Notes under the pieces: generated by a model
What the model saw: only the letters and a program-made list of their open reading frames with translations
Database searches by the model: none
Told to the model about the DNA's origin: nothing
Position numbers and translations under genes: made by a program
IMG/VR virus record: IMGVR_UViG_3300025767_000022
Span: 1 to 57,726 of that record
Length of the DNA: 57,726 bases
Strand: one strand, 5' to 3'
Origin: a virus
Shown: piece after piece, positions 11,473 through 36,791 of the stretch
Numbering within the stretch: the stretch's first letter is position 1
How the letters are laid out: each line of letters starts with the position of its first letter

Positions 11473-11871
11473 TTAATCTAAAGCATCTTCAATTGCTCGT
11501 TTTACAGCAATAGAAAATTCAGTTTGTTCAAATGGTAAATTTTCATCTTGCAATTGGAGTAGAGTTGCTGCCACATTCATCTTAGCAGTTCCTACACCAA
11601 CTGATTCTTTACCATCTTTAGTTACAGTTACAGTCACAAAAGTTTTCTTTTGTTTGAATTCGAATGGTCCGATTCTCACACCTTGAGTTGGTGCTTTGAT
11701 TTCGTTTACAACCACATGGATTGGTGAACCATCAGGACAAAGTGGTGCTTCTTGTCCTACGATTTCTTCGGTGATTTGCCTTACACCGAAAGTGAATTTC
11801 TCTTCGGATACTCCATTGATTGAAGCCATTGAGATTACTGAAGCTACAAAGTAGCATATAATTGTATTCAT
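11473..11871 (-). CDS. Mini-CsgG-like secreted protein, cassette 1
   Basis: A 132-residue protein with an N-terminal hydrophobic export segment (about 1-18). It then shows the skeleton of a reduced CsgG-like domain: FGVRQITEEIV (compare GLGVSNRIIENF in the CsgG-like protein of this cassette), a central beta pair, and a C-terminal helix 'TEFSIAVKRAIEDAL' aligning with VGIATQRALEVA. The 162-residue gene at 36303-36791 in cassette 2 has the same plan. It is the last gene of cassette 1, 1 nt after the preceding stop. The relationship to CsgG is judged by eye. Confidence 0.55.
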   Translation of the reverse strand: MNTIICYFVASVISMASINGVSEEKFTFGVRQITEEIVGQEAPLCPDGSPIHVVVNEIKAPTQGVRIGPFEFKQKKTFVTVTVTKDGKESVGVGTAKMNVAATLLQLQDENLPFEQTEFSIAVKRAIEDALD

Positions 11872-11872
11872 T

Positions 11873-13078
11873 TTAATTTACTTTATTTGAATTAGTTGTT
11901 CTTCGGTGTTTACCCAAAGAAACGATATAAAACCTATTGAGATTGTTAAATGTTCTTACCGATGATTGAGGATATTTGAGATGGTATGTCAAACTATTTG
12001 CGTTTGATTCTATATCATCCTTTTCCAATTGAGAATATACCCAATTGTTATTATAAGTGTATCCGGAATTCTGTCCCCATTTGTAGATTTGATATGCGGA
12101 GAATACATCTGAATAAGTTACAATATCTGAACTATCCAATGCGTAGAAGTTCATTGTATGATAATCCCAAGATGCAATTTCAGTAGGAAACATTCTTAGA
12201 TACATTAAGTAATTCATCTCCGATTCTGTAAATGTGTTAGTGATTCCACTTACATCTACCGTTACTCTATACTGATAGTTATTTGGATTTGAGAATGATA
12301 AGTAACCAGTTGATGTGGTGGTTTGAGTTCCTTGTGTTGTCCAAACCGAATTTGATGTTGCGTTATCAATCACAAAAGCAACACCATTGGAATAAGTTGC
12401 GTTTGTAATCATATTTGATGCTAACCAAGTAGAACCATTTGATAATCCGATTTGTTCTTGTGTTGAACCATCTGCCAAGAATGTTCGTAACACCACAATC
12501 ATTTTATTTGGATTGTTTTTTGGAAAGTATAAATCAATCTTAGTGTTGATACCACTTATATTATATTTGTAACTACCCTCATATCTGATTCGGAATACAT
12601 CACCCCAATATGAATCGTTATAAGCTTCGGTTGATGCATGAGACATATTGTTATCGGTACTACCATTATTTACCGAAGTAAAGTGTAGTGTTGGTACATT
12701 TGGTGCCGTTGCTGATGAATTGTAGCTATTATAAGTTGTAGTTGGAAATGCTAACCAAGCATTAGCATGAAGTAGTGCAGTTGAGTATGTGGTTGTTCCA
12801 ATAGTTGGAGTGTAACCATTTGGAAAAGTTATAAGAACTGAACCTTGGTCCGAGTTTGCGGTTGAGAATACAACCGATGTTCCCTGTCCTCTATCGGCTG
12901 GAATGTTTGATGTTAGTGAACCAATTGTACCAGTTGTTCCACCCGGCACATAATGTTCTACCTCAACATCAATACCACTCATATCCTGCACACCAACAGT
13001 TGCAAAGGTTATAGTTTGAGAATATCCCCCAATTGATACTGTGAGTATAAAAATAAGAGTTAAAATAAACTGTTTCAT
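11873..13078 (-). CDS. Secreted protein with dockerin-like C-terminal segment, cassette 1
   Basis: A 401-residue protein from ATG at 13078, which overlaps the barrel gene stop (TTATGA), so the two are translationally coupled. A longer in-frame start at 13162 would lack a signal peptide and is rejected. The signal peptide is MKQFILTLIFILTVSIGGYS. The mature part is Ser/Thr/Asn/Tyr-rich and beta-type. Near residue 325 the segment 'SDIVTYSDVFSAYQIYKWG' resembles the first helix of the dockerin-like modules in the other cassette proteins. No T9SS C-terminal domain is seen. It is probably a periplasmic or surface partner of the CsgG-like channel (inference). Confidence 0.6.
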   Translation of the reverse strand: MKQFILTLIFILTVSIGGYSQTITFATVGVQDMSGIDVEVEHYVPGGTTGTIGSLTSNIPADRGQGTSVVFSTANSDQGSVLITFPNGYTPTIGTTTYSTALLHANAWLAFPTTTYNSYNSSATAPNVPTLHFTSVNNGSTDNNMSHASTEAYNDSYWGDVFRIRYEGSYKYNISGINTKIDLYFPKNNPNKMIVVLRTFLADGSTQEQIGLSNGSTWLASNMITNATYSNGVAFVIDNATSNSVWTTQGTQTTTSTGYLSFSNPNNYQYRVTVDVSGITNTFTESEMNYLMYLRMFPTEIASWDYHTMNFYALDSSDIVTYSDVFSAYQIYKWGQNSGYTYNNNWVYSQLEKDDIESNANSLTYHLKYPQSSVRTFNNLNRFYIVSLGKHRRTTNSNKVN

Positions 13079-14598
13079 AACATAATTTTTGTTCCAGTTG
13101 AAAGTTGGAAGTTGAGAATATCTGCTTTGTATTGATAAGCCCCACCAAATGAAACACTCCATTTGAAAGTATTGGTAACTTTGAAATCAATATTAGCAAG
13201 TGGAACAAAGAGTAATCCACTCTTATACCACTGTCCCTCATAGTAAAAAATGTAAGGAGAATATATTCCCAACAACATAACATTTCCATTCAGAAACCAA
13301 TCGTTATTGAAGTTAGTGAAACCACCAGCTACAATACTCCAATTCTGAAAATCACTTTCACCAATCTTACCCAAAGTGAAGTTAGTTCCCAACATTGGAG
13401 TTACTATCCAAAGTTTTTGGGAAGCAAGAATGGTTGTAGTATTAAATATATCCGATTTGAAGTTAGTCATTGTGGAGTTAGAGAACACTCCCATAAATCC
13501 CTTATGTTTATACGAACCATATAAAGTTGAGTTCAATACATTTTCACCGGTGGTATAATTAAAGTTGATACCTTTGATGAATGTTTGTTTGGTGTTAACA
13601 TGCGTAAGAGACATATTAAACTTAAAGTTATCCATTCCTTTGGTTTTGTAATCCGATGAATTTCTGATAATCACAAAATCACCTGCTCCGATTAAAGCTC
13701 CTCTACCAATCTTTTCTTGTTTGGATTTTTTAGGTTTTCCACCTCCACCTCCTCCACCGGAATCTTCTCCGCCTTCGGAATCACCACCACTTGCGGTAGT
13801 TGTGTTATCAGTTCCACCAGTAGCACCAGTTTCAGTACCACCACCACTATCAGTTCCACCGGTGTTAGTTCCAGTATCTACTCCACCGGCTTCTCCACCT
13901 CCGCCGATTCCACCGCCGGAGTTATCTCCGCTTTGTCCTCCACCAGACCCGCCGCTTCCGCCCGTTGAACCTCCTCCACCATTTCCGCCACCAGAGCTTC
14001 CACCTCCGCCCGTTGAACCTCCGCTTCCACCACCTCCCGTTGAACCTCCAGAAGAACCAGAGGAACCACCACCAGAAGTAGAACCACCACCAGAGCCAGA
14101 AGAGGACCCGCCAGTTGAAGTTGAACCCCCACTATTAGAAGAACCAGAAGAAGAACCAGAAGAATTCGAGCCATTATCGTTAGAAGATGAAGATGAACCA
14201 CCAGATGGTGGGGTTATAGTTATAGAAGATGCTTGTGAACCTAACCCAGCTGCAATACCTACGATAGAAGATACATTCGCTGCGGTATTTGTTGCGGTTG
14301 ATGAGTTGGATGTTTGTGCGGTTTGTCCACCATTTCCAGCACAAGGGTTTGAACCCGGAGGAAACGATGCGTTGATTGAGTTTACCCAAGCTTCATAACC
14401 ACCACTTTGAAGTTGGGCTTGTGTAAATGTGTTCCATTGTCCAGCATAAAAAAGAGTTACTGAACCTAATGGTTGTGAAATTGTTACGGTGTTAGGTAAA
14501 CCAGTACAGGGGTCTGTGTAAGTATATTGGAACGATTGTCCATACCCCACAAACCCCAATACTGAAAGTAGAATTGTTATCCACCATTTACCATCCAT
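13075..14598 (-). CDS. Outer-membrane barrel protein with long Gly/Ser linker, cassette 1
   Basis: A 507-residue protein. The signal peptide covers residues 1-20. A short N-terminal domain carries DPCTG at 29-33. A very long low-complexity linker follows (about 125-295), consisting of Gly/Ser tracts with occasional Asp/Glu. A basic hinge KPKKSKQEK comes next, then about 200 residues of alternating beta strands typical of an outer-membrane beta-barrel, ending in a hydrophobic strand (STGTKIML). The plan matches the 488-residue protein in cassette 2. Its start overlaps the CsgG-like gene by 11 nt. Large plus-strand frames over the linker are mirror artefacts of the repeated codons. Confidence 0.7.
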   Translation of the reverse strand: MDGKWWITILLSVLGFVGYGQSFQYTYTDPCTGLPNTVTISQPLGSVTLFYAGQWNTFTQAQLQSGGYEAWVNSINASFPPGSNPCAGNGGQTAQTSNSSTATNTAANVSSIVGIAAGLGSQASSITITPPSGGSSSSSNDNGSNSSGSSSGSSNSGGSTSTGGSSSGSGGGSTSGGGSSGSSGGSTGGGGSGGSTGGGGSSGGGNGGGGSTGGSGGSGGGQSGDNSGGGIGGGGEAGGVDTGTNTGGTDSGGGTETGATGGTDNTTTASGGDSEGGEDSGGGGGGGKPKKSKQEKIGRGALIGAGDFVIIRNSSDYKTKGMDNFKFNMSLTHVNTKQTFIKGINFNYTTGENVLNSTLYGSYKHKGFMGVFSNSTMTNFKSDIFNTTTILASQKLWIVTPMLGTNFTLGKIGESDFQNWSIVAGGFTNFNNDWFLNGNVMLLGIYSPYIFYYEGQWYKSGLLFVPLANIDFKVTNTFKWSVSFGGAYQYKADILNFQLSTGTKIML

Positions 14599-15328
14599 AA
14601 GCTTCCATGCGTTTCACAAGGTTTACCGTAGCAACCTCCAACGCTCTTTGGGTAGCGATACCTACTGTTGAGTTATCAAATCCCATTTGTGGGTTTTTGA
14701 AGAAACCTTCACCAACTTGAGTAGCCGTTCCCTGCCCAGAAGCAACAATGTATTGTGAGTTATCAACATTAACCATTCTGATTTGAATACCCATAATGGT
14801 TGTGTTGGTTTTCTCTACTTTACCTTTGTTATAGTTCTCACCATATGATACAGCGAAATCATAAATCTCCGCATATACGATGTATTTAGGAACTGCGATA
14901 CCTTCCATTGATAATTGAGTTTTACCATTGGACATTCCTTCTAATTCAGTTTCCCAAGCATCTAACATTTGTCCAACAATAGCATCTTTCTCTTCAGCGT
15001 AAGAGAATCTACCAGTCATTTCAAAGTTTTCAATGATACGATTGGAAACACCCAAACCAACTCTTTTATCTCTAAGTTCTGGGAACATTTCCCAAAGTTC
15101 TTTGTTTACATTAAGTTTAGAGAGTTGAACTACTTGTCTTTCACCAGTATAAATTGGCATTGAGTTTAATGGTTCTGCTTTCTCAAAATCAGCTTGGTAT
15201 TGTTGAACACCAATAGAAGATTTACATGAGGTTGCCATTCCACCAACAAAAAGTAAAGATACTACCACTAATATCAATCCAAGTGGAGCAAATATGTATT
15301 CTAAAATTTCGTCTTTTCGTGTTCTCAT
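14588..15328 (-). CDS. CsgG-like outer-membrane secretion channel lipoprotein, cassette 1
   Basis: A 246-residue protein. It has a hydrophobic export segment at 12-30 and a lipobox-like MATSC with Cys35. The body matches the CsgG fold pattern: RVGLGVSNRIIENF, YIVYAEIYDFAVSYGE, IQIRMVNVDNSQYIVASGQG and the C-terminal helix VGIATQRALEVATVNLVKRM. CsgG forms a nonameric lipoprotein channel in the outer membrane that exports curli subunits. Length (about 212 mature residues) is slightly below the usual 260-280. It lies between a small membrane protein and the barrel protein. I am confident of the CsgG-like fold, less so of curli function. Confidence 0.75.
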   Translation of the reverse strand: MRTRKDEILEYIFAPLGLILVVVSLLFVGGMATSCKSSIGVQQYQADFEKAEPLNSMPIYTGERQVVQLSKLNVNKELWEMFPELRDKRVGLGVSNRIIENFEMTGRFSYAEEKDAIVGQMLDAWETELEGMSNGKTQLSMEGIAVPKYIVYAEIYDFAVSYGENYNKGKVEKTNTTIMGIQIRMVNVDNSQYIVASGQGTATQVGEGFFKNPQMGFDNSTVGIATQRALEVATVNLVKRMEAYGW

Positions 15329-15329
15329 C

Positions 15330-15713
15330 TTAGTTACCTCCGTTTCTTTCTTCTCTTGCTTTCTTCAATCTAGCCATTCTTTCCGCATTGGTTTCTGGCT
15401 TCTCCTCAACAACTTGAACAGGTGCAGGTTGTGCTGCTGGAACTTCCCTTACAGTTTCTCTCACAATAGTTTGTGTAGGTGCTGCTTTTTGTTCTGGAAT
15501 ATTGATAATTACTTGCTGATTATTCGATTGAGATTGTTGTTGATTTGCATCAATTACAACTTCAGTTGCTGCTCCAGCAGATTCCTCTTCAATACCCATT
15601 AAAGTATTGAATTGAGTGGTTACATAAGTTCCTATCGCAGCTGCCATTGTTCCCGCAACTCCGATGATACCTTTTTTGAGGCTTGACATACCCTCTTTGA
15701 TTTCTTCGTTCAT
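15330..15713 (-). CDS. Small membrane protein with conserved Gln/Asn motif, cassette 1
   Basis: A 127-residue protein with one transmembrane or amphipathic segment at about 15-40 (GIIGVAGTMAAAIGTYVTTQ), then QQQSQSNNQQVIINIPEQK, a Pro/Val/Glu-rich stretch, and a charged C-terminal helix. The 19-residue Gln/Asn motif is identical in the 107-residue protein of cassette 2. It sits 1 nt upstream of the CsgG-like gene. No signal peptidase site is obvious, so it may sit in the inner membrane with the motif exposed. Function unknown. Confidence 0.65.
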   Translation of the reverse strand: MNEEIKEGMSSLKKGIIGVAGTMAAAIGTYVTTQFNTLMGIEEESAGAATEVVIDANQQQSQSNNQQVIINIPEQKAAPTQTIVRETVREVPAAQPAPVQVVEEKPETNAERMARLKKAREERNGGN

Positions 15714-15719
15714 AATGAA

Positions 15720-17645
15720 TTAGTATTTAATAATTTTGAAGAGTTTCTCTCTATCAACAGTAACCAATTTAACAATATAGAATCCCTTTGGTAAATCACT
15801 CAAATTAATGCCGTGATATTGGTATCCTCTATCGTATATCTTATCAGAGAATGATTTAATCAATCTTCCGTTTATATCGTATATTCCACCATTGATTGTA
15901 GAATTCTTATAATCGTTGATGTGTTCAATCATTAACCAGTTACCAGTCATATCACTAACAGGGTTAGGGAACAATTTGAATGATTCAACCAACTCCAATA
16001 ACTCAGGGTCAATTGACATTTTGTTTACAACTGAACCATCGTTTGGTGAAGGTTTAACACTAACATCATATGCGTTTTCATCACCAGCTGCTTTGTTGAA
16101 GATTCTCAATGGTGAGGTAGTCCAACCTAATGGATTAACAACATCAAATACGAATGTGAATTGAGTTGTCATATCTTCAATAACCGCTGGATTCATCTTA
16201 TCTTCGTGTCCTGCCCAAAATACACTATTCTCTTTTACCGAAAGAAGTGATGTCCATTTTGAAGCAGCATCTCCCATTTGGATAGAATTGAATCTAAAAA
16301 TGTTTGTATCATATTCAATACCCATTTGAGCTGCTCCTAACTTATTACCAAATGTGTAAAGAGTTACAGGTACTTCCATTTTGTAGTCTTGCGTTACTAC
16401 CAACTTTGGAAGATAGAACTGAACAGTATCAGGTTTGTTGGAAAGGTAAACCGCTGGGTCTAAGATGTATTGAGTTCCCAATGATGGGTCAACCATTTTA
16501 GCCAATATAGTTGCTGGGTTGTTGTATCCAGTTGTAGTAGCATCACCCACTACATAGATGTAAGGTTCTAATGAATCTAATGAGTTTACGATTGTATCAA
16601 TAGCGTATCGTCTTGGTTGGTTTGTCCAGTTTGGAGCCGCTACTGCTGATTGAGCGGTAGTCCATTCGTTCTCCCATAAAACCGATACATTGTTTACACC
16701 ACTAAATAAAGTGTTCCAATTTGTGGAACCCAATGCCAATCTATTGAACATTGCGAATGCATCTGAAATAGAACCATTTCCATCTTCGTTGATATCACCT
16801 TCGTACCACTCAATACCACTTAGAGTATCTTGTTGTGAAGAGTGGTTTGCTAATTTGTATGCATCGGTAATTGTTAAAGCACCACCATCGGTCATTGTGT
16901 CCGTTTGTGCTACTAATCTTAAATGCCAGAAGTTGGTATCAATTGGGTGAACCACATTCATAATACCATTTGAGTTGGTAGAATCAGATATGATGGTTGT
17001 CCAAACTCCTTGTGTATTTGTTTTCAATCTTTTACTTGCGGTGAAGTAAACACCTTGAGCAGGAGAAGCATCAGCGTTTCTAACTTTGATTGGGAAAGTT
17101 AATGGTGTCATTTGGAAGTTACCACCATAGTTAAACATACCCAATGACTGGTCAACACCATTACCAGTTGTAGATAAGTTGTTGTAAGATGAAGTACCAC
17201 TAATAGCGATTGAATCTACTACACCATCAAATGCGGTTGCGTGATATAATCTTAACTTAAACATAGCACCATCAGCCCAATTAAAGTTAGATGATGTACC
17301 TGTGTAAGTTGCTACAACATTTATATAATCCGAATTGTTAAAGTATGAACCATACTTATCCGTTACCAATTGTGCGGTTGGTCCCCAATACATTACAGCT
17401 GATGAGAATTTCACATTATCGTAAAACAAACGGAACTGAACTGATTTAATATCATCTACCGTTGGGTTAGCGAAGTGAACATAAACATCAGTATAAGTTG
17501 CTGGATAATTGTCCAATGTGAACAATGTATCAACCAAAATGTAAGGAGTTGTTGAGGTTGGAGCAGTGAGTATCTCACCAGCTCCATTTTGTGCGAAGGT
17601 GTAGGTTGACATTAAGAGTGCCAACCCCATAAAAATCTTTTTCAT
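15720..17645 (-). CDS. Cohesin/dockerin-like secreted protein with T9SS type-A sorting domain
   Basis: A 641-residue protein. Signal peptide 1-18. A cohesin-like domain spans about 36-150 (DDIKSVQFRLFYDNVKFSSA). A dockerin-like module spans about 257-302, with the calcium-type loop GDINEDGNGSISDAF. A second cohesin-like domain spans about 425-545 (GAAQMGIEYDTNIFRFNSIQ). The C-terminal 75 residues are a Por-secretion type-A sorting domain (LFPNPVSD...INGRLIKSF...LPKGFYIVKL). T9SS cargo is exported across the outer membrane and usually anchored. It is the first gene of cassette 1, with a late-type motif 106 nt upstream (17751-17759) and a long leader. Confidence 0.78.
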   Translation of the reverse strand: MKKIFMGLALLMSTYTFAQNGAGEILTAPTSTTPYILVDTLFTLDNYPATYTDVYVHFANPTVDDIKSVQFRLFYDNVKFSSAVMYWGPTAQLVTDKYGSYFNNSDYINVVATYTGTSSNFNWADGAMFKLRLYHATAFDGVVDSIAISGTSSYNNLSTTGNGVDQSLGMFNYGGNFQMTPLTFPIKVRNADASPAQGVYFTASKRLKTNTQGVWTTIISDSTNSNGIMNVVHPIDTNFWHLRLVAQTDTMTDGGALTITDAYKLANHSSQQDTLSGIEWYEGDINEDGNGSISDAFAMFNRLALGSTNWNTLFSGVNNVSVLWENEWTTAQSAVAAPNWTNQPRRYAIDTIVNSLDSLEPYIYVVGDATTTGYNNPATILAKMVDPSLGTQYILDPAVYLSNKPDTVQFYLPKLVVTQDYKMEVPVTLYTFGNKLGAAQMGIEYDTNIFRFNSIQMGDAASKWTSLLSVKENSVFWAGHEDKMNPAVIEDMTTQFTFVFDVVNPLGWTTSPLRIFNKAAGDENAYDVSVKPSPNDGSVVNKMSIDPELLELVESFKLFPNPVSDMTGNWLMIEHINDYKNSTINGGIYDINGRLIKSFSDKIYDRGYQYHGINLSDLPKGFYIVKLVTVDREKLFKIIKY

Positions 17646-17750
17646 TACAAGAATACTCTATTAGTGTAGTATCCGTAACATTTTAATAAGAACTGCTTAT
17701 TTACTTAAACAATTAAAGTGAAGTAAGTTGTTTTGTTTAAGTTTATCAGT

Positions 17751-17759
17751 TATAAATAT
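17751..17759 (-). promoter_or_regulatory. Late-type motif for secretion cassette 1
   Basis: ATATTTATA on the minus strand, 106 nt before the 641-residue gene. The leader contains a TTAAACAA...TTGTTTAA stem. Confidence 0.55.
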
Positions 17760-17773
17760 AAGAATAATTACAT

Positions 17774-18493
17774 TTAATAACTAAAAAATTCATCTTCTAT
17801 GGAATCATTAGAAACCGAACCATAATCTAAATATTCATTTAACATTCGAATCTGATGTTCTTTCATTATATTTACAACCTTTGTGATGTAATGCGTTTTA
17901 CAATCAGTCATTTCTCTGATTAGAAGATAAAGGTGCTTTTTGTTAAAGTTTTCAATGTATTGACTTCTTCGGAATAATTCTAAGATAGCATCTGCTATTT
18001 GAATATCTCTTTTCTTTGTAAAAACTTTTGTGAGATTTTTATCCCAATATTGCAACATCAAATCTTTGAACTCATTGTACTCATTACCCATTTGTACATC
18101 ATAGAAATCGTTTTCTGGATTCCAAGTTTCAGGCATCTGCGATAGCAAATCCGTTTTCTTATATCTTTTATAATTTGAATTATTATTAAGAATAAGATAG
18201 TTTTTTGCTACGATAGAAAAGTAAGAAAATGCTTTACCCTTACCTTCTTTGAACATATGAATTTTTTGAATGAGTACAGAAACCACTTCCATTTGGATAT
18301 CCTCTTTAGGTACATCAAAATAAGAAAACTTAAATGTATTTAATACATTTTCAGCAAGTTTGTCAAATGGATACTGAATTTTATCCCGATATAGTTGATT
18401 GCGTTCTCTATCAGAATTTGATTTATTATATGCGATTATTGCATCCTCAGTTTCCTGAGTGAAATACATTTTATTTTTTCTTGGTCTTGGCAT
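17774..18493 (-). CDS. Phage sigma-70-family-like factor, candidate late sigma
   Basis: A 239-residue protein with a basic N-terminus (MPRPRKNKMYFTQ). A region-2-like helical core spans about 40-105 (DKLAENVLNTF, EDIQMEVVSVLIQKIHMF, KAFSYFSIVAKNYLI) and an acidic C-terminus contains SIEDEFF. Its size and pattern resemble the T4 gp55-type sigma factors of large phages. The T4 factor directs late transcription from TATAAATA. Here it may read the ATATTTATA motif (inference). It follows an 88-residue membrane protein by 2 nt and is driven by the host-type promoter at 18781-18812. Confidence 0.7.
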   Translation of the reverse strand: MPRPRKNKMYFTQETEDAIIAYNKSNSDRERNQLYRDKIQYPFDKLAENVLNTFKFSYFDVPKEDIQMEVVSVLIQKIHMFKEGKGKAFSYFSIVAKNYLILNNNSNYKRYKKTDLLSQMPETWNPENDFYDVQMGNEYNEFKDLMLQYWDKNLTKVFTKKRDIQIADAILELFRRSQYIENFNKKHLYLLIREMTDCKTHYITKVVNIMKEHQIRMLNEYLDYGSVSNDSIEDEFFSY

Positions 18494-18495
18494 TA

Positions 18496-18762
18496 TTATA
18501 AATTATTTTTGTACTTTTCAATAATATCTTTTAATTCATTAAAAACCACACCAACTTCATCATCGGATTCAAACGAACCTCTAATATCAATTTGTCTCAT
18601 CTCCTCCAACATTGTTTCTAATGCGGAAATAGTATCTTCTGAGAAATCACTATAACTTGTTTGAATTTCTTCAATTTGTTTTACTAATTGGGTTCCCTTA
18701 ATCACAAAGAAAATATTCGATGCTATAAGTAATACCACTACCATGTATAATATTGTTTCCAT
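18496..18762 (-). CDS. Small single-pass membrane protein
   Basis: An 88-residue protein. The transmembrane segment is at about 4-22 (ILYMVVVLLIASNIFFVIKG). An acidic cytosolic coil follows (about 27-88) with a helix ISALETMLEEMRQID. It is the first gene after a host-type promoter and lies 2 nt upstream of the sigma-factor gene, so the two are co-expressed. Function unknown. No anti-sigma motif can be demonstrated. Confidence 0.6.
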   Translation of the reverse strand: METILYMVVVLLIASNIFFVIKGTQLVKQIEEIQTSYSDFSEDTISALETMLEEMRQIDIRGSFESDDEVGVVFNELKDIIEKYKNNL

Positions 18763-18780
18763 ATTGTATAAAAAGATATG

Positions 18781-18812
18781 TAAAGATACGAAAAATATTT
18801 CAATTATCCAAA
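18781..18812 (-). promoter_or_regulatory. Host-type promoter for membrane protein and sigma gene
   Basis: Read on the minus strand: TTTG, 20 nt, TATCTTTA, with TTTCG directly before the -7 box. This fits the Bacteroidetes -33/-7 pattern. The start codon at 18762 lies 19 nt beyond. Confidence 0.7.
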
Positions 18813-18813
18813 T

Positions 18814-19029
18814 TTATGCTTCACCTTTTGGTCCCATAAAAAAATTTGGATAATCAACATCTTTCTCAATATCAATCTCTTCTCTTAATTTATTTAATTT
18901 ATCAAAAATAATATTATCCAATCGTTTACCATCGATTGTTTTTGAATTCTCAAGTTCTTCAATTAAGGATTCTAATATTACTTCTAATGTAATAACTTTA
19001 GTTGCTAAGTAATCTAATTCTGTCATCAA
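18814..19029 (-). CDS. Small helical protein, unknown
   Basis: A 71-residue acidic helical protein starting MMTELDYLATKVITLEVILE (the second Met is equally possible). The C-terminus, NFFMGPKGEA, is Gly/Pro-rich. Its start overlaps the end of the 85-residue gene by 4 nt, so the pair is probably coupled. The -33 element of the promoter at 18781-18812 lies just past its stop. No family recognised. Confidence 0.5.
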   Translation of the reverse strand: MMTELDYLATKVITLEVILESLIEELENSKTIDGKRLDNIIFDKLNKLREEIDIEKDVDYPNFFMGPKGEA

Positions 19030-19283: not shown

Positions 19284-19284
19284 A

Positions 19285-27334: not shown

Positions 27335-27343
27335 AAATAAAAT

Positions 27344-28712: not shown

Positions 28713-28727
28713 AATAGTTTCATTTTA

Positions 28728-29179: not shown

Positions 29180-29891
29180 ATTTTACTTTTTCAAATAGTG
29201 ATTTCTTTGTTTTAATTTCAAACACATTTCCATTAGAAGATAGTTTTCCGAACCTACCATCCTTTACAACTGAACCATTTGAAAATTTAGTTGGTAGAGT
29301 ACTGATTTGCAAAATACCCTGATTTATAATATCCTCACAATTGTGAATGTGTCCAAATAAAACCAACTTAGGTCTTACTTCGATAATTCTATTCATTAAA
29401 GATTTATCACCACATCTTTCCATCGCACCATTTCTATCAAATGAAATATCCAATATTCCTTTTGGTGGTCCGTGATTGATGACAATATCAGTATCAATAT
29501 CAATAATATTTCTCCAAATTCTATCCAACTTTGTTCTATCTTTGTTGAAAGACCAACCAAATCCAAATGAAGGTGTGTAAGGTGAACCAAAGATTTTTAG
29601 CCCCTCAATAGTTGTGTAACTGTTTTCTAAATAAATAATACCAGCATTCATAAAATCATATTTAGTAACCAACCTCTTTTCAATTGAAGTATCGTGATTA
29701 CCTGCTACAAAGATTTTGTGTTTAACCGGAAGAGCACTATACCAATCAATAAAATCCCTAACTTCGGGTTCATTGGCAAAGGGGTCTCTTGGATTAGAAC
29801 AATCCCCACTAAAAATCACCATATCAATATCCGCTGGAATCTCCAACAAATTATGAAAGGTGTGTGTATCTGATATGTGCCAAATTTTCAT
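29130..29891 (-). CDS. Calcineurin-like metallophosphoesterase
   Basis: A 253-residue protein from ATG at 29891. A TTG four codons upstream is possible but less likely. Motifs of the two-metal phosphoesterase core appear in order: ISDTH, FSGDCSNPRD, VAGNHD, INHGPP and LFGHIH. Substrates in this family range from phosphomonoesters to nucleic acids and cyclic nucleotides, so none is assigned. The C-terminal 50 residues are basic and overlap the dCMP deaminase start. Confidence 0.83.
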   Translation of the reverse strand: MKIWHISDTHTFHNLLEIPADIDMVIFSGDCSNPRDPFANEPEVRDFIDWYSALPVKHKIFVAGNHDTSIEKRLVTKYDFMNAGIIYLENSYTTIEGLKIFGSPYTPSFGFGWSFNKDRTKLDRIWRNIIDIDTDIVINHGPPKGILDISFDRNGAMERCGDKSLMNRIIEVRPKLVLFGHIHNCEDIINQGILQISTLPTKFSNGSVVKDGRFGKLSSNGNVFEIKTKKSLFEKVKYELGRVFHKYSRAGKA

Positions 29892-29892
29892 T

Positions 29893-30030
29893 TTAGATTC
29901 CAATTACAATTTCCCATTTTAACCAACCGATGATAAGTTCTAAATCACCATTAAGAGTTCGAGTGTGGGTTAGTTTAACATAAGGGAGTAGATAAACCTG
30001 TCCCCATACTTCACAATAAGTTACTCTCAT
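29893..30030 (-). CDS. Small protein, 45 residues
   Basis: A short frame from ATG at 30030, overlapping the stop of the DUF1599 gene (TAATG), to TAA at 29893, 1 nt before the metallophosphoesterase start. It begins MRVTYCEVWGQVYLLPYVKL and ends in a hydrophobic strand GWLKWEIVIGI. The perfect packing between two genes supports translation. Function unknown. Confidence 0.6.
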   Translation of the reverse strand: MRVTYCEVWGQVYLLPYVKLTHTRTLNGDLELIIGWLKWEIVIGI

Positions 30031-30392
30031 TATTTTGCCCATTTACCTCTTTGGACAATCTGAGCAATTACACCATAAACTGATAAATCTTCGTAAGTGT
30101 CTTGAATTGATTCACCTACTTCATCAGGTTGTCCTAATACTACTAATTGTTTCAAACGCTGAACCTTATCATTGATACGAAACCACAATCCAGTAAGTGA
30201 AAGTTTCACATCTTCGTTTGTTTCCAAAGCCGTACCTACGGAAATGTTGCCAGGTCCATAGTTTCGTTGTTTCTTACAAAAGGTAATGTACATCTCGTCC
30301 AAAATCTTTTTGAACTCTTCAGTTGTTTGTGGGTAAGTTGCCTCACAATACTCAACAGCCGATTGACCGTATTCGATTTTCTCTTCGCTCAT
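30030..30392 (-). CDS. DUF1599/nucleotide-modification-associated domain protein
   Basis: A 120-residue all-helical protein with CKKQRNYGPGNISVG, SLTGLWFRINDKVQRLKQL and SIQDTYEDLSVYGVIAQ, matching the DUF1599 family. That family is linked by context to modified-nucleotide biosynthesis and resembles MazG-like folds. It has a host-type promoter at 30415-30446 and is followed by a coupled 45-residue gene and the phosphoesterase. A role in the nucleotide pool or base modification is inferred. Confidence 0.75.
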   Translation of the reverse strand: MSEEKIEYGQSAVEYCEATYPQTTEEFKKILDEMYITFCKKQRNYGPGNISVGTALETNEDVKLSLTGLWFRINDKVQRLKQLVVLGQPDEVGESIQDTYEDLSVYGVIAQIVQRGKWAK

Positions 30393-30414
30393 AACTTGTT
30401 TTGATGTTTATGAA

Positions 30415-30446
30415 CAAATATACGAAAAATATTTTACATATACAAG
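30415..30446 (-). promoter_or_regulatory. Host-type promoter for DUF1599 gene
   Basis: CTTG-N20-TATATTTG on the minus strand, with TTTTTCG upstream of the -7 box. 22 nt before the start codon. Confidence 0.8.
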
Positions 30447-30702
30447 CTAAACAAACTATAATTACGAAAAATGAAAATAGTTGAATTTTTTTTATCGTTT
30501 GGGAAAAGTAGTATATATGTATTTATAAATTACACATAAGATACTCTCAGGTGAAGCTATGAGTTTAAGCGCTTCGAAACTTCAGGTACCCACTCCTGTT
30601 GGATAAGATAAATTTTACTTTTTTGAATTTCACAAAACGCACAGAGACACGGTGCAAGATAAGACAGCAAAAAAAATTAAAATAAAAATTAGACAATAAA
30701 AA
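30447..30702. other. Intergenic region with structured leader-like segment
   Basis: No long gene. On the plus strand a TATTTATA (about 30515-30525) precedes a segment with self-complementarity (GAAGC...GCTTC, CTCA...TGAG) and a 15-codon frame MSLSASKLQVPTPVG starting in the middle of 30541-30600 after AGGTGAAGCT. The right part is A-rich with no signal. It may be a plus-strand small RNA or peptide gene. Weakly supported. Confidence 0.3.
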
Positions 30703-30939
30703 TCAAATAACTTCGTAGTTAAATTTATCTAATCTCTTAACAACTCTATAAACTCTAGGTGTAGGGTCCTCAGCATCCAATTCATCTCTTTTAGATTGTG
30801 CTTCGGATAATGTGTCGAATTCATCTAATGAATCTTCTCCATTTAATTTGTAAACCCAAATCTGTCTTTTTGCCCAATTAGGGTCTCCAGCATTTTGGTC
30901 AACTGGTATGAGTTGTTTTTGTACAGCGTATTCTTTCAT
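30703..30939 (-). CDS. Small protein, 78 residues
   Basis: The product begins MKEYAVQKQLIPVDQNAGDP and is mixed alpha/beta with an acidic helix 'LDEFDTLSEAQSKRDELDAE' and a C-terminal YRVVKRLDKFNYEVI. A late-type motif lies at 30954-30962, 15 nt upstream. No family recognised. Confidence 0.55.
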   Translation of the reverse strand: MKEYAVQKQLIPVDQNAGDPNWAKRQIWVYKLNGEDSLDEFDTLSEAQSKRDELDAEDPTPRVYRVVKRLDKFNYEVI

Positions 30940-30953
30940 ATCAATTTATTTTG

Positions 30954-30962
30954 TATAAATAT
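30954..30962 (-). promoter_or_regulatory. Late-type motif ATATTTATA
   Basis: On the minus strand, 15 nt before the 78-residue gene. Confidence 0.5.
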
Positions 30963-30968
30963 TTAATT

Positions 30969-31484
30969 TTACCAATTCCATAAAGGGTTGTTGGGGTTCT
31001 CCCACCAAAACAATAATCCACCATCCTTTTCAAAATCAAACTTTTCAGTATAGTAATCTGGCTCAAATACCGAATTAGATTGTAGATACAAACATCCAAA
31101 TCTAAAGTTATTAACCGAACCAATTAGTTGATTTTTAAGAGTACCGAAATTACTTCCTCTTAAACACCCCGAATCAATACACAATAGTTTCTTATCAGTT
31201 CCTCTATATTTTTCAGAAAGTTCTTCACACAACATTGAGTATTCAGATTTATTTAATCGTTCCTCATTTGGATATGGCATTTCTAAAAACTCCATTTCAA
31301 ATGGTTCATTGTTGTTGAGATGTGAAAGGGAATGGTTTATTATTTGACATAATTGTGAACTATATTCAGGTGAGCAAACAACAATAATTGTGTTTGAATC
31401 AACCCACTCACTATCCTTTATCTTTTTGATAAGTGTGAGTGTATCTATATACTCCTTATCTCTATCTATCACAAAATATCCCAT
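30969..31484 (-). CDS. Unknown protein next to secretion cassette 2
   Basis: A 171-residue soluble protein, MGYFVIDRDKEYIDTLTLIK, with a Rossmann-like alternation (NTIIVVCSPEYSS, KLLCIDSGCLRGSNF) and a Trp-rich end (LLFWWENPNNPLWNW). It lies 12 nt after the barrel gene start region, with its own late-type motif at 31488-31496. A phosphoribosyltransferase-like loop was considered but the match is weak, so no function is assigned. Confidence 0.5.
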   Translation of the reverse strand: MGYFVIDRDKEYIDTLTLIKKIKDSEWVDSNTIIVVCSPEYSSQLCQIINHSLSHLNNNEPFEMEFLEMPYPNEERLNKSEYSMLCEELSEKYRGTDKKLLCIDSGCLRGSNFGTLKNQLIGSVNNFRFGCLYLQSNSVFEPDYYTEKFDFEKDGGLLFWWENPNNPLWNW

Positions 31485-31487
31485 AAG

Positions 31488-31496
31488 GATAAATAT
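31488..31496 (-). promoter_or_regulatory. Late-type motif variant ATATTTATC
   Basis: On the minus strand, 4 nt before the 171-residue gene, in the gap between it and the barrel gene of cassette 2. Confidence 0.45.
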
Positions 31497-32963
31497 CTAA
31501 AAAGGAAGTTTGGAACCAATCATAAAAGAATTGATGATTGGCATACCCTTTACAGTTGATTTAATAATTGTCCAACCTGTATTGATTGTGAACCTTCGTG
31601 TCAATCTTATTGTAAAAGAATTAGCAAGTATTGTCATCCCACCAATAGTAGTTCCCTTCAAATCATTTTGTAAATCAAACCCACCCATATATGGTGATTG
31701 TGTCCAAATGATTGCCGGTGCGTAAGTTATTCTATTATTTACATTAACAATGTTTGTGTATAACACATTATACCCAATTACACTCATTTGATACTTACCT
31801 TCGCCAAACATATTAGCCATTGAGAATCCTATACCAGCGGTTCCCCATTTTCCCATAGGTTTCATTCTATTTGCGGAAAGAACAATGGTTCCATTACCAA
31901 AGTTGTTTGAATATCCCAATGAAAACGCATTGATAGAACCTACCGTTGGAGTAGGGGGTGTTAGAGGGGACTTAGAAGATACTTTACCATCAACACCATA
32001 GTGTGTATGGTCTCCGTGTATAAGTGTTGTTAGAGAGGGGATTTTGATATTAACCTTTGAGTATGAAGCAGTTAAAGCAAACTGTCTGAAGTTACTCCAA
32101 ATCATTCCGTTCAATCCAAAAGTTTCATCACCAAATAAAGAAGTTTGAGATGCCCCAGTAGCCATAACAACATCATACGAACCCAGCAAAGATTGTATTG
32201 CCATCATATCTGCTTTAACTTGGATAGGATTAAACTTCTTAACCCTTTCCTTTTTCTCATCCTTCTTTTCTTCTTTTTTTTCCTCGTCCTTTACTTCTTC
32301 TTCAGATTCTTCTCCATCTCCATTATCATCATCACTCGATTTCTCATCTCCACCTTCTTCTCCTCCTCCGTCATCTCCATTTTCTTCGGTGGAATCCTCA
32401 GATTCTCCACTCTTTGTTTCAGTCTCTTCACTTTTAGTTTCAGTTGTTTCTCCTCCACCATTTTCGGTTGAAGAATCATTTGTACTTGATGTATCAGTAT
32501 TACCACTCTCAGTAGTACTATTTGTAGATGTACTTTCAGATGTGGAGTTGTTAGTTGTATTAGATGGTGCATTCGTACCTCCCGTTGTATTAGTTGTTGG
32601 TGTGGGTGGTGGTGTAGTTGGTACCGATGTAGCCGCACTAGCAGCAGTTTGAGCTGCCTGTTGTGCGGTTTGAGCGGTTTGTTGAGCTTGTTGTGTTTGT
32701 TGAGTTGCGGTTGAACACGGTGATAGTAAGTTCCACCACACATATGTTTCGTTTAACCATTGTTGTAATACTCCACTGGTAAACTCAGCGTAAGTAAAGA
32801 TTCTTATCTTATTATAGAATGCAACTGTTGCTGAACCATTTACGAAGTTAGCAGTTACTACCTTTACTTCACCAGTACACCTGTCCACAAATGTTTGAGT
32901 AAAAACTTGTCCATAAGAACTAAATCCGAATAATAGAAATAATATTATTAATATTCGTTTCAT
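31497..32963 (-). CDS. Outer-membrane barrel protein with acidic linker, cassette 2
   Basis: A 488-residue paralogue of the 507-residue cassette 1 protein. Signal peptide 1-18. Short N-terminal domain with DRCTG at 27-31. A linker of Gln/Ala, then Thr/Asn/Ser, then Glu/Asp/Gly/Lys tracts follows (about 88-245). A C-terminal beta-barrel (about 250-488) ends in the strand FMIGSKLPF with a terminal aromatic residue, as in outer-membrane proteins. The linker chemistry differs completely from the Gly/Ser linker of cassette 1, while order and flanks are kept. It follows the CsgG-like gene by 3 nt. Confidence 0.7.
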   Translation of the reverse strand: MKRILIILFLLFGFSSYGQVFTQTFVDRCTGEVKVVTANFVNGSATVAFYNKIRIFTYAEFTSGVLQQWLNETYVWWNLLSPCSTATQQTQQAQQTAQTAQQAAQTAASAATSVPTTPPPTPTTNTTGGTNAPSNTTNNSTSESTSTNSTTESGNTDTSSTNDSSTENGGGETTETKSEETETKSGESEDSTEENGDDGGGEEGGDEKSSDDDNGDGEESEEEVKDEEKKEEKKDEKKERVKKFNPIQVKADMMAIQSLLGSYDVVMATGASQTSLFGDETFGLNGMIWSNFRQFALTASYSKVNIKIPSLTTLIHGDHTHYGVDGKVSSKSPLTPPTPTVGSINAFSLGYSNNFGNGTIVLSANRMKPMGKWGTAGIGFSMANMFGEGKYQMSVIGYNVLYTNIVNVNNRITYAPAIIWTQSPYMGGFDLQNDLKGTTIGGMTILANSFTIRLTRRFTINTGWTIIKSTVKGMPIINSFMIGSKLPF

Positions 32964-32966
32964 TCA

Positions 32967-33683
32967 TTAGTTCTCGAAGATTCCTTTTTTAATCATTCGT
33001 GAAACAATTCTTGCAGATGCGGTTTCTAATGCTTTACGAGTTGTTACTCCAATGGCAGATTGTCTGAAGTTAATTTCTTCAACATCCAATCCTAAGATAC
33101 CTTCTTGTGTTTTTACAGTGTTAGCATCACCTAAACCAGAACCAACAAAATAAGTTCCATCGGTTGCATTGGTGAATCTAACTTGCAACCCCAAACGAGT
33201 TGTTTGTGTTTGTTTAGAACCATCTCTCATAGAAAGAACTTCATCTTCCGATACTGAGAAATCATAAACCTCAATCGTTACAAAGTATTCTGCTAATTTA
33301 ATTTTACCCATTCCATAGACCTGATTTTCGGATACACCTTTACGAGATGCAACCCATTGGTCTTTCATTCTATTTTTAATTTCAGATTTCTCCTCAACAA
33401 ATTGGAATCGGTTTGTCCAATCCAAATATTCAATTACCATATTGGTAACACCCAATCCAATTCTAGCATCTTTCAAATCAGGATACATCTCATATACTTC
33501 ATCGGAGATACCCACATTCAAAAGTGCAATTGGAATCATTGGTCCATCATAATCAGAAACATCATCAATCGATGCTTTCTTTTCAAACTCAGCTTGATAA
33601 GTTTCTGCTTTAATTGAACCTATTTGTGCATAAGAGGTAAGTGTAAAAAATACACCCACCATTATTAATATTATTTTTTTCAT
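32967..33683 (-). CDS. CsgG-like secretion channel protein, cassette 2
   Basis: A 238-residue CsgG-like protein with matching landmarks: RIGLGVTNMVIEYLDWTNRF, YFVTIEVYDFSVSED, LGLQVRFTNATDGTYFVGSG and IGVTTRKALETASARIVSRM. Unlike the cassette 1 copy it has a plain signal peptide (MKKIILIMVGVFFTLTSYAQ) and no lipobox Cys, so it would be non-lipidated. CsgG channels are normally lipoproteins, so membrane insertion may differ or depend on the lipidated paralogue (inference). Confidence 0.72.
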   Translation of the reverse strand: MKKIILIMVGVFFTLTSYAQIGSIKAETYQAEFEKKASIDDVSDYDGPMIPIALLNVGISDEVYEMYPDLKDARIGLGVTNMVIEYLDWTNRFQFVEEKSEIKNRMKDQWVASRKGVSENQVYGMGKIKLAEYFVTIEVYDFSVSEDEVLSMRDGSKQTQTTRLGLQVRFTNATDGTYFVGSGLGDANTVKTQEGILGLDVEEINFRQSAIGVTTRKALETASARIVSRMIKKGIFEN

Positions 33684-33684
33684 A

Positions 33685-33888
33685 TTATGACCCTAATGTA
33701 TCGTATATACCAAATTGAACATTATCCCACATATGTGGATTTAGTATGGTTGCAACTAAAATTGTTGATAACCCACCAATTGCTAAAACAAATAATCCGG
33801 TAATCCATAAAGCAACTAAATACTCTAATGGTGAATTTGCTTCTTTCCAAATATTCACAATTGAATTGTTTAATATAAAATCTTTCAT
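33685..33888 (-). CDS. Small membrane protein, cassette 2
   Basis: A 67-residue protein with one or two hydrophobic helices at about 22-50 (EYLVALWITGLFVLAIGGLS). It lies between the 107-residue protein and the CsgG-like gene, 1 nt from the latter. Cassette 1 has no obvious counterpart. Its size and position would suit a holin-like or accessory membrane component, but there is no further evidence. Confidence 0.6.
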   Translation of the reverse strand: MKDFILNNSIVNIWKEANSPLEYLVALWITGLFVLAIGGLSTILVATILNPHMWDNVQFGIYDTLGS

Positions 33889-33905
33889 AATGTTTTTAGT
33901 TTATG

Positions 33906-34229
33906 TTACCAATCTATTTCTTGTTCTTTTTCCAATTTCTTTACAGGTTTTCTAGCGGTAGTATCTTTAATAATCACCGTCTTAGTTTCCGCTGGTTTTT
34001 GTTCTGGAATGTTAATAATAACTTGTTGATTGTTCGATTGAGATTGTTGTTGTTGCTGAACCATTTCGGTTTTAGCTCCACCCTCTTCTTCATCTGCAAT
34101 ACCCAAAATACCCTTTACCTCATCGATAAAAATACCACCGATGGTTGTTAACACAACCCCAGCACCTGTTATGATTTGGTTCTTCAAATTAGAAAAGAAC
34201 CCACCATTGTTTTCTGCTTCTTCGCTCAT
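33906..34229 (-). CDS. Small membrane protein with conserved Gln/Asn motif, cassette 2
   Basis: A 107-residue protein with a hydrophobic segment at about 15-38 (NQIITGAGVVLTTIGGIFID), an acidic patch, then QQQSQSNNQQVIINIPEQK, identical over 19 residues to the cassette 1 protein at 15330-15713. It ends in a charged tail. It overlaps the small lipoprotein gene by 4 nt. The strict conservation of the motif against a divergent background points to a binding site for a shared partner (inference). Confidence 0.65.
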   Translation of the reverse strand: MSEEAENNGGFFSNLKNQIITGAGVVLTTIGGIFIDEVKGILGIADEEEGGAKTEMVQQQQQSQSNNQQVIINIPEQKPAETKTVIIKDTTARKPVKKLEKEQEIDW

Positions 34230-34573
34230 AATTTTATTGTTGTTTGTTTAATGATGTTATCTTTAACATCTTTTATTAATAATTTGTAACTACCCCTTGG
34301 AAGGGCTCTTGTGTAAATGTTAAGTTTGTTGTCTCCAACCTTACCATAAAAGATTTCATTGGTATGTGTTATGTTTGTAAACTCATCAACCAACGATATT
34401 TTGAATTCACCTTCGGATACAATATTAATGTTAATCTCATCACCATCGTTCACAACAGTACTCTGAACTTCGAAGATATCAACACTATTGGTAACCGGCT
34501 CTAATATTTCAAAAGTATCATCAGTACATGAGAACACAACCAAAAGTAGCAATATGTAAAATAGTTTTTTCAT
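34226..34573 (-). CDS. Lipoprotein resembling a detached T9SS sorting domain, cassette 2
   Basis: A 115-residue lipoprotein. The signal is MKKLFYILLLLVVFSC with lipobox Cys16. The rest is a single beta domain whose final strands (LNIYTRALPRGSYKLLIKDV) follow the pattern of T9SS type-A C-terminal domains (L-x-x-G-x-Y-x-L). It overlaps the end of the 577-residue cohesin/dockerin gene by one base, and that protein lacks its own C-terminal sorting domain. A split cargo/anchor arrangement is inferred, and the domain assignment is moderate. Confidence 0.55.
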   Translation of the reverse strand: MKKLFYILLLLVVFSCTDDTFEILEPVTNSVDIFEVQSTVVNDGDEININIVSEGEFKISLVDEFTNITHTNEIFYGKVGDNKLNIYTRALPRGSYKLLIKDVKDNIIKQTTIKL

Positions 34574-36306
34574 TATTCTATATTCATTTTAAGTTGTTCA
34601 CTTTTTGCGTTTACCGCATCGGTGTTAGTTAGAATAACCAATCCTAATGTGTTATCAAGTTGGACTTTTGGTGTAAAAGTTAATGTATATTTTGTCTTAC
34701 CATCCAAATACTGGTCTTTGATTTGGACAAATGAACCAATATTGATGTAATCATTTTTTAAGTTACTAAAGTTAGTTGATACATTATTTGTTTGATAATT
34801 GATTTCATCAAAAATTAATTTAGATGAATCAAATTTAACTTTATATTGTGCACCAATTACTTTTTGTTGTTTAGGGTCTAATGTAATATTTGCAATAACT
34901 TTTCCATTAACTAATTCAGTTGTAATGGTAGTTGATATTTGTCTTTCAACTTTATTTGTTGCTTTAGCATATGATGGGATAAACACCTTAGCGGTAGTTG
35001 TTTGTTCTGATTGAACATTTGGAGTTGTTGAATGTGATAAGTTAACATCACCTCTCCAAGTGATAGCGGATTCAAAACTAAATTGTAATTTTGAATTATT
35101 TTTGTTATCCAAATAATTCATCAAAGTTGTTCCGTTTGGAATCTGAGAATAGTTAGTTGTAGTAATTGTATCGTATTGTGCTTTAGGATAAAACTTGGAA
35201 GCATAAACCATACCATCTCCCTCTAAATAAGTGGATACATCTAATACTTGTGAAAGTAATAGGTAGGTATCATCTGAATTAAACTGACCATCACCATTAA
35301 CATCCGCATTCATAAATTGGATACCATTTCCAAATTCGTTACCAACTTCATTTTGGTTAATACCTCTATTGTTTAATTCAGCAAACGCAAGAGCAACATC
35401 TGATATTGTTACTATCTCATCATATTGTTCTCCAAAGGTAATTGTATAATCACCATTTTGTGCATCAACTACATACCCATCCCAATTAGCAATAACTGCC
35501 AAATCAGAAGTTCTATCAAATCCTTGTGTGATATTCATCGAACCATCTGTACTAAAGTTTTCATAAGTTGCATAATCCGGTTGCAACCAGCTCTGAACAT
35601 CATTTGGGTCTTTTGTGTATAACCCACCATCAAACAATGTAGGGTCTAATGTTTCGGGAAATAATACCTTAAACGATGCGGTTACCTTTGTTGAGGTTGG
35701 TACATTGTCGAATGTTTGATTTGGAAACGCTTTAACATCGGTAAATAGATATCCAGTTATGTTATCCCTAACCGATGCTTTTCTTAACATTGCTGATTGA
35801 TTAAAGTCAAATCCGTTTGGTACTTGTTTATATCTAAACTTTAATCTAGCCACAACACCAATTAGTTCACCTGTTGTTTGTGAACTAATAACCATCGGTG
35901 CATGGAATGATTGTTCCCCTATGTAATTCCATCTATGGTCAGTATAATACTGCCCATATAAATCATCAACTGTTGCAGTTGTTGAGTTTTGAAATTCATA
36001 AACAGATGGCCATTGGTTGGTGTACCAGTTACCATTTGGATTTGGATTATCAATTCCCAAATAATCAAACGCATCATTTTTGAAAGTAAACCAAATATCT
36101 GCAAAAGTTACTTTTCTTTGTGAGTTATCTGAATTATAAATTGTAACATCTAAATAAAACTCATCGCCAATTTCCAATGCGGTAATTGGTGTTACTTCTC
36201 CTTGAACTGGTTCATTGATTAAACCAGCATAATCCAATGATATGTTTATGGTTTGTGAAAACGATAACATTGGTAATAGAAATAATAATACTAATAATTT
36301 TTTCAT
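34573..36306 (-). CDS. Cohesin/dockerin-like secreted protein, cassette 2
   Basis: A 577-residue paralogue of the 641-residue cassette 1 protein. Signal peptide 1-18. Cohesin-like domain about 38-165. Dockerin-like module about 299-352 with the calcium loop ADVNGDGQFNSDDTYLLLSQ. Second cohesin-like domain about 455-577 (VIGAQYKVKFDSSKLIFDEI). It ends without a T9SS sorting domain. The next gene may supply one. Its start overlaps the mini-CsgG-like gene by 4 nt. Intermolecular cohesin-dockerin pairing between the two cassettes' products is a testable possibility. Confidence 0.68.
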   Translation of the reverse strand: MKKLLVLLFLLPMLSFSQTINISLDYAGLINEPVQGEVTPITALEIGDEFYLDVTIYNSDNSQRKVTFADIWFTFKNDAFDYLGIDNPNPNGNWYTNQWPSVYEFQNSTTATVDDLYGQYYTDHRWNYIGEQSFHAPMVISSQTTGELIGVVARLKFRYKQVPNGFDFNQSAMLRKASVRDNITGYLFTDVKAFPNQTFDNVPTSTKVTASFKVLFPETLDPTLFDGGLYTKDPNDVQSWLQPDYATYENFSTDGSMNITQGFDRTSDLAVIANWDGYVVDAQNGDYTITFGEQYDEIVTISDVALAFAELNNRGINQNEVGNEFGNGIQFMNADVNGDGQFNSDDTYLLLSQVLDVSTYLEGDGMVYASKFYPKAQYDTITTTNYSQIPNGTTLMNYLDNKNNSKLQFSFESAITWRGDVNLSHSTTPNVQSEQTTTAKVFIPSYAKATNKVERQISTTITTELVNGKVIANITLDPKQQKVIGAQYKVKFDSSKLIFDEINYQTNNVSTNFSNLKNDYINIGSFVQIKDQYLDGKTKYTLTFTPKVQLDNTLGLVILTNTDAVNAKSEQLKMNIE

Positions 36307-36791
36307 TTAAGTAATTCCTCTACTATTTGTGATACTACCTTTTTTAATGCGATGGAAGCAGTTTGTTGATTGAATGTACCATCATCCGCAACTACGAGTG
36401 TAGAGGTAGAGACTTCTTTTGATTCACCCTTTTGGGTAGTTTTTTTCTTTACCTTCTTCCCTTCTTGAAGTTCACCTATGGCTATAATCTGAGTTATAGA
36501 CACATCTTTGTGGAATACCGCAACATTCGTTCCGATATTCTTAATATCAAAAAATACTAATTTAATATTGATTTGCTTTTCCGCATTTGGTGAAAGTGAA
36601 TAATCACTATCCATAAGAATTTCTTCTACGATATTCTTAACACCAAATGCAAGGTTACGGTTACCAGCGAATTGTCCTATTCGGATTTCGTTAGTAATTT
36701 CCCCCACCTTAATCAAATCATCTTGTGCTTGAACCGATTCCAATCCAAACAGTAGGAATAGACATATCCCTACAAATTTCAAAGCATTCAT
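36303..36791 (-). CDS. Mini-CsgG-like secreted protein, cassette 2
   Basis: A 162-residue protein with a signal peptide (about 1-22, cleaved after VQA). It has the reduced CsgG-like skeleton: LAFGVKNIVEEILMD, INIKLVFFDIKNIGTN and a final helix 'QTASIALKKVVSQIVEELL'. It is the first gene of cassette 2, whereas its 132-residue relative is the last gene of cassette 1. A late-type motif lies 96 nt upstream (36887-36895), leaving a long leader as in cassette 1. Confidence 0.57.
   Translation of the reverse strand: MNALKFVGICLFLLFGLESVQAQDDLIKVGEITNEIRIGQFAGNRNLAFGVKNIVEEILMDSDYSLSPNAEKQINIKLVFFDIKNIGTNVAVFHKDVSITQIIAIGELQEGKKVKKKTTQKGESKEVSTSTLVVADDGTFNQQTASIALKKVVSQIVEELLK

Follow-up and report, generated by a model that had tools for sequence, protein, structure and literature searches.

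What does a phage do with two copies of a gene set built around a relative of the curli protein CsgG? The question is raised by viral record IMGVR_UViG_3300025767_000022, analysed here as a single stretch of 57,726 nucleotides (the window), in which cassette 1 (11473-17645) and cassette 2 (31497-36791) both lie on the minus strand. Each cassette encodes a CsgG-fold protein, a shortened relative of it (mini-CsgG), a beta-barrel protein (BAR), a small membrane protein (SM) and secreted proteins of cohesin/dockerin type. The reading proposed here, which falls a little short of an even chance, is that both cassettes serve as late envelope modules, each of which would display its scaffold protein on the infected flavobacterium around lysis.

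A CsgG-like family apart from curli

CsgG1 (14588-15328), which carries a lipobox-like cysteine (ATSC), and CsgG2 (32967-33683), which has a signal peptide and no lipobox, share 34% identity (E = 3e-43), bearing out the initial annotation's view of the cassettes as paralogous. Single-sequence searches of Pfam and PHROG and a profile search of PDB sequences are blind to the CsgG fold suspected in that annotation. It is recovered by structure prediction: 24 of the top 25 PDB matches of an AlphaFold2 model of CsgG2 (pLDDT 73.6, pTM 0.63) are curli CsgG chains, the best Foldseek match having an E value of 5.7e-8 and TM-scores reaching only 0.4-0.5. The fold of CsgG1 follows from its identity to modelled CsgG2. 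PelC (5e-4) and LptE (3e-4) appear in the same PDB search as members of the same fold family, but no sequence relation between either protein and the phage CsgGs was found. PelC, LptE, and other CsgG-like outer-membrane lipoproteins work beside a barrel partner.

Mini-CsgG 1 (11473-11871) was assigned by alignment of the mini family, and mini-CsgG 2 (36303-36791) heads cassette 2. Judged by profile alignment with the full-length proteins (96.9%, E = 1.8e-10), the minis are shortened CsgG relatives. Compared pairwise, the two are unconvincing (E = 0.01); a model of cassette-1-type minis nevertheless finds mini-CsgG 2 with E = 1.5e-13. A similarity of the minis to ribosomal protein S1 was judged a chance match.

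Neither CsgG of the window matches PF03783, the curli CsgG family, which is reached by one of 29 members of the phage family (9.7e-4); the sequence link otherwise runs via a relative at L108, an Ignavibacteriales chromosomal locus (36% identical; PF03783 at 2.5e-6). The curli signature GGxGARYFG is found in none of 30 phage-family CsgGs but in all 15 curli CsgGs compared, 14 of them from Flavobacteriaceae and one from the pelagiphage HTVC008M. Membrane hairpins span 28-29 and 47-51 residues in the phage family and 32 and 59-60 in curli CsgGs, and are thus 3-4 and 8-12 residues shorter in the former (spans of 105 in two rows are pattern-match errors and were ignored). The phage-family profile does not match the curli CsgG of HTVC008M; PF03783, in turn, finds that protein (1.8e-54) but not the CsgG of the cultured Flavobacterium phage immuto. 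Pfam scans of the cassette proteins yield no curlin, CsgE, or CsgF domain. On these comparisons, the cassette is not a curli system.

Two related candidates were also rejected: identity of the BAR N-domain with CsgF, for which the alignment covers the signal peptide and a few residues only, and an origin from host curli genes, for which there is no profile relation to Flavobacteriaceae curli CsgG.

The shorter hairpins and the missing signature call a pore role for CsgG into question, and the phage-built export pore put forward in the initial annotation was therefore overstated. A curli-type (type VIII) system, in which a CsgG pore would export amyloid or dockerin proteins, could draw on the fold itself and on the curli systems known in other phages (PMC7029224, PMC9599517); set against the absence of curli partners from the Pfam scans, the diverged hairpins and signature, and profiles that do not cross-match between HTVC008M and immuto, it appears improbable.

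Distribution and arrival of cassette 1

Searches of phage genomes reveal a gene set conserved in around 100 viral contigs and in a cultured lytic phage. A total of 104 viral loci came from two scans; among the 55 non-redundant ones with enough flank, BAR and a COH or DL protein are present in all 55 (as is the BAR N-domain, 55/55), SM in 53, and a mini-CsgG in 44. In the lytic phage immuto, which infects Flavobacterium sp. LMO8, the set corresponds to gp015-gp019. A pattern scan of 85,000 species genomes returned three loci only: two look like phage contigs within metagenome-assembled genomes, holding a whole cassette together with a peptidoglycan-binding/GH19-type endolysin, and the third is L108. 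Across 199 Flavobacteriaceae genomes, the sole strong match lies in the genome that holds a phage contig (L106), with a weak partial match (2.9e-4) in one other. The phage origin assumed at the outset thus stands, given the baseplate wedge genes in the window, the set in a cultured lytic phage, and its near-absence from hosts.

The CsgG/mini-CsgG pair itself is probably of cellular origin, since L108 carries both side by side (5.4e-63 and 1.7e-14 to the phage models). There, however, the genes that come after the pair encode (by eye) a transglutaminase-like protein, an adenylate cyclase of CHASE2 type, and a different barrel, with no match to SM, BAR, or cohesin. This chromosomal operon (L108:7977-15413) looks like an undescribed cellular relative.

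Among the records searched, a second cassette is unique to this one: of 46 others, 45 hold a single CsgG, and in HTVC008M the phage profile finds none. On either side of cassette 1, the window backbone is syntenic with that of G003, a phage of 276 kb that holds a cassette-2-type set: 0.9-10.3 kb of the window corresponds to 45-53 kb of G003, and 17.8-28.7 kb to 18-42 kb. Cassette 1, by comparison, is 57-90% identical to the cassette of phages G021 and G239, which have almost nothing further in common with the window apart from a TonB-dependent receptor and three matches that are weak or isolated. Cassette 1 therefore arrived as a module, and the record is no obvious chimera; by these alignments the cassette came horizontally from an unrelated phage. 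The two copies in this record only, and the likeness of one to an unrelated phage's, might also be expected of an assembly chimera or a host locus; given that the sequences to either side of cassette 1 are syntenic with one and the same phage, and that the family is nearly absent from host genomes, this is scarcely credible. The prophage/host chimera or routine host locus that the initial annotation had held open is likewise largely ruled out by the G003 synteny and the host-genome scans.

An Ntn-hydrolase-like gene (10402-11196, minus strand) may have come with cassette 1; in some relatives, a gene of the same kind stands after the cassette (four loci, cluster 29). The TonB-dependent receptor (38541-41255, plus strand; Pfam plug and barrel) is encoded on the strand opposite to the cassettes, beside a lipoprotein-like gene (41379-42437, plus strand). 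Of 28 relatives searched, three phage contigs (G003, G005, and G021) carry receptors 71-78% identical to it, and with only these three having one, it was rejected as part of the cassette.

Architecture of the cassettes

Both cassettes are complete, with every named open reading frame (ORF) and the order of transcription as first annotated. Cassette 1 runs COH1, SM1, CsgG1, BAR1, DL1, mini-CsgG 1; cassette 2 runs mini-CsgG 2, COH/DOC2, a small lipoprotein, SM2, a 67-aa transmembrane (TM) protein, CsgG2, BAR2.

BAR1 (13075-14598) comprises a signal peptide, a small two-cysteine N-domain (DPC...PC), a helix, a disordered Gly/Ser linker (approximately residues 120-298), and a 12-stranded beta barrel. 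Its AlphaFold2 model is of low overall confidence (mean pLDDT 59, with the barrel mostly at 70-86), and its PDB matches—PgaA, NanC, and KdgM—are weak. BAR2 (31497-32963) has the same type of N-domain, an acidic/Ser linker, and a beta barrel. The two have a 71-aa N-terminal domain in common (E = 2e-10), and barrels of the two types, whose member sets do not overlap, align at the profile level (95%, E = 2e-8).

SM1 (15330-15713) lacks a signal peptide, has one weak TM segment near residues 15-33, and ends in the tail QQQSQSNNQQVIINIPEQK. This is the motif that had been noticed in the small TM proteins of both cassettes, and it is indeed common to them: SM2 (33906-34229) is 47% identical to SM1 over 90 aa. 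The 67-aa TM protein of cassette 2 (33685-33888; hydropathy 2.31 at residues 31-49) occupies the slot taken by holin-like proteins in other cassettes, and similar proteins are found in the same place (cluster 16).

COH1 (15720-17645) contains a signal peptide, a cohesin domain (Pfam Cohesin 1.1e-4, just below cut-off), a dockerin-like segment, and a C-terminal sorting domain for type IX secretion (Por_Secre_tail, 1.1e-8, 35.6 bits against a cut-off of 27). Among cassette-1-type relatives of COH1, the sorting tail is present in 29/29 (E ≤ 0.01) and cohesin in 26/29 (best 8e-13). DL1 (11873-13078) is a secreted dockerin-like/adhesin-like protein, 78% identical to its G021 homologue; its ORF is listed from 13162, but the true start is most likely 13078 (MKQFILTLIF...). 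In cassette 2, COH/DOC2 (34573-36306) is a secreted protein of dockerin/cohesin type (Dockerin_1 1.3e-4) with no sorting tail. The cohesin/dockerin assignment of the initial annotation is thus weak in two window proteins (around 1e-4) and clear only across relatives; matches to a dockerin domain that might bind the cohesin are weak in both the window proteins and the relatives. BLAST detects no recognisable paralogy between the secreted scaffold proteins of cassettes 1 and 2 (E = 0.15), and hhalign results for the coh1, doc2, and dl1 groups were not used, their alignments having members in common.

The domains seen in cassette-2-type scaffold proteins of relatives are cohesin, C-type lectin, PA14, and GLEYA. 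The small lipoprotein of cassette 2 (34226-34573; lipobox FSC by eye) resembles a separated sorting-tail domain, and near the cassette-2-type set of another relative (G013) an ORF of 124 aa matches Por_Secre_tail at 1.1e-4, below cut-off. In type 2 cassettes, the small lipoprotein may hold a tail-like domain separately.

Cohesin was also searched for across 18 records, of which 17 are relatives and one, HTVC008M, is a control. There are 25 matches, spread over 16 relative phage records and every one within around 6 kb of CsgG, and none of the 18 records has cohesin outside the cassette. Sorting-tail matches in the relatives fall in the cassette scaffold gene in 14/16 cases. The window also encodes a 687-aa secreted protein (50715-52778, minus strand) with a CHU_C type IX secretion signal, which makes it this phage's second type IX cargo; the motif ATATTTATA, discussed below, stands 28 nt upstream of its gene.

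Timing of expression

On the coding strand between genes, ATATTTATA occurs 10 times against 0.37 expected (at 885, 7307, 10373, 11222, 17751, 22938, 30954, 36887, 42873, and 52806) and never reversed. One copy (17751-17759, minus strand) lies around 100 nt upstream of COH1 and another (36887-36895, minus strand) around 100 nt upstream of mini-CsgG 2. Seven copies stand 15-30 nt before a gene, baseplate-region genes among them, and several relatives likewise have the motif ahead of their cassette. In its usual orientation, the T4 late promoter TATAAATA is not enriched, but its reverse complement is, as ATATTTATA upstream of genes. We infer that ATATTTATA probably serves this phage group as its late promoter, and as it is found ahead of baseplate-region genes as well as of both cassettes, late expression of the cassettes is likely.

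Such a late-type motif, together with the position of cassette 1 between a gp55-like gene (by eye) and the baseplate region, would also suit a virion part or an adhesion structure on released virions. The signal peptides, however, take these proteins out of the cytoplasm, the site of virion assembly, and cohesin is confined to the cassette in the records searched; this explanation is accordingly given very little weight.

The lysis neighbourhood

In contigs with a GH19 endolysin, the gene lies within 7 kb of CsgG in 16/24, against 3.3 expected (P = 8e-10), or in 13/21 when three close relatives are left out (P = 1e-7); both P values are optimistic, as the contigs are related to each other. A second endolysin type is found within the same distance in 8/12. 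In three loci (L025, L027, and L030), a 285-286-aa ORF is located inside the cassette just before SM, and a GH19 endolysin lies at about this place in L025 and L030. The G021 cassette runs into genes for a 2-TM protein, an endolysin, a PF05105-like holin (family assigned from a similar protein in L013), and a 1-TM protein, and holin-like small TM proteins adjoin CsgG in around half of all loci.

This neighbourhood favours the main rival: that during lysis the small inner-membrane proteins drive the CsgG-fold ring and the barrel to open or rupture the outer membrane, in place of spanins. A lysis role for phage CsgG has also been suggested by those who described phage Melnitz (PMC9004378). Yet matches of the neighbouring small TM proteins to holin families are weak (PF05105 excepted), the GH19 endolysin of immuto is 30 kb from its cassette, and rupture leaves unexplained the conserved scaffold with its sorting tail and the lectins. 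Overall, outer-membrane disruption is considered somewhat less likely than display, and more likely than any other rival. As for spanins, none was recognisable, SM1 reaching only 0.053 to an Rz-like family, and no recognised lysis gene adjoins either cassette in the window.

A 458-aa baseplate-region protein of the window (7335-8711, minus strand) has an endolysin-like C-terminus (PHROG 9589, 6e-13). A secreted DNA/RNA non-specific endonuclease sits beside the cassette in 19/86 loci (L063:3850-4437 and similar; gp012 in immuto), and a secreted 150-aa protein with a metallopeptidase-like HESLH motif is found downstream of mini-CsgG in 21/86 (L072:10378-10830 and similar).

A proposed late display module

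In the favoured reading, display of a scaffold on the infected cell, CsgG and its smaller relative would form a ring at the outer membrane, into which the C-terminal barrel of BAR would also be inserted. The BAR N-domain, on its long flexible linker, would probably dock to the ring, and the one-helix SM is probably located in the inner membrane. The cassette-1-type cohesin/dockerin scaffold would be exported by the host type IX secretion system and shown on the surface, along with lectin- or PA14-type proteins in relatives. The result would be a late change of the surface around lysis, by masking or sticking, with candidate purposes including the shielding of released progeny from re-adsorption, the exclusion of other phages, and the holding together of cells.

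Weighing against this proposal are the lysis-like gene neighbourhood, which favours disruption; the shortened CsgG hairpins, with the doubt they cast on any pore role; and the cassette-2-type scaffold proteins, which lack a fused sorting tail. A surface coat better explains the secretion tails and lectins, whereas disruption better explains the neighbourhood.

Relation to known systems

Curli operons have been described in pelagimyophages (PMC7029224), the OM43 phage Melnitz (PMC9004378), and pelagipodophages (PMC9599517), and the statement that no such phage system was known holds only in part: phage CsgG systems are known, but no description of this gene set was found in the open-licence literature searched. 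Like the cassette, the phage curli modules are conserved gene sets that the host lacks and that include a CsgG-fold protein; lysis and cell capture have been proposed as their role. They differ in that their CsgG is of the true curli kind and is accompanied by CsgF and reportedly by curlin repeats, whereas the cassette combines a diverged CsgG family with a mini-CsgG, a barrel, cohesin/dockerin proteins, and type IX tails. In both lineage and gene set, the phage cassette differs from phage-borne curli. Phage proteins with type IX sorting domains, like COH1, have been described in a cryophage (PMC7468147) and in BACON phages (PMC6949934), but with no link to a CsgG/barrel cassette or to cohesins.

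Beyond what was first annotated, the evidence now includes the type IX tails, the repeated endolysin/holin linkage, and the horizontal arrival of cassette 1. Taken at its broadest, and more tentatively than the display reading, the cassette may be a new phage envelope machine: a CsgG-fold ring and a flexible-linker barrel with type IX-exported cohesin/dockerin adhesins. As part of the programme by which flavobacterial phages lyse the cell, it would either breach the outer membrane or form a coat on the cell as it dies, and it would be handed on as a module from one phage to another that is not related.

In this gene set, a barrel of the outer membrane and a CsgG-fold protein are tied to type IX secretion and to lysis genes in one conserved, mobile unit. 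It bears on the means by which Bacteroidota phages breach the outer membrane and on the reason for CsgG proteins to be found in phages at all, and the cultured phage immuto, growing on Flavobacterium sp. LMO8, makes the matter accessible to bench tests.

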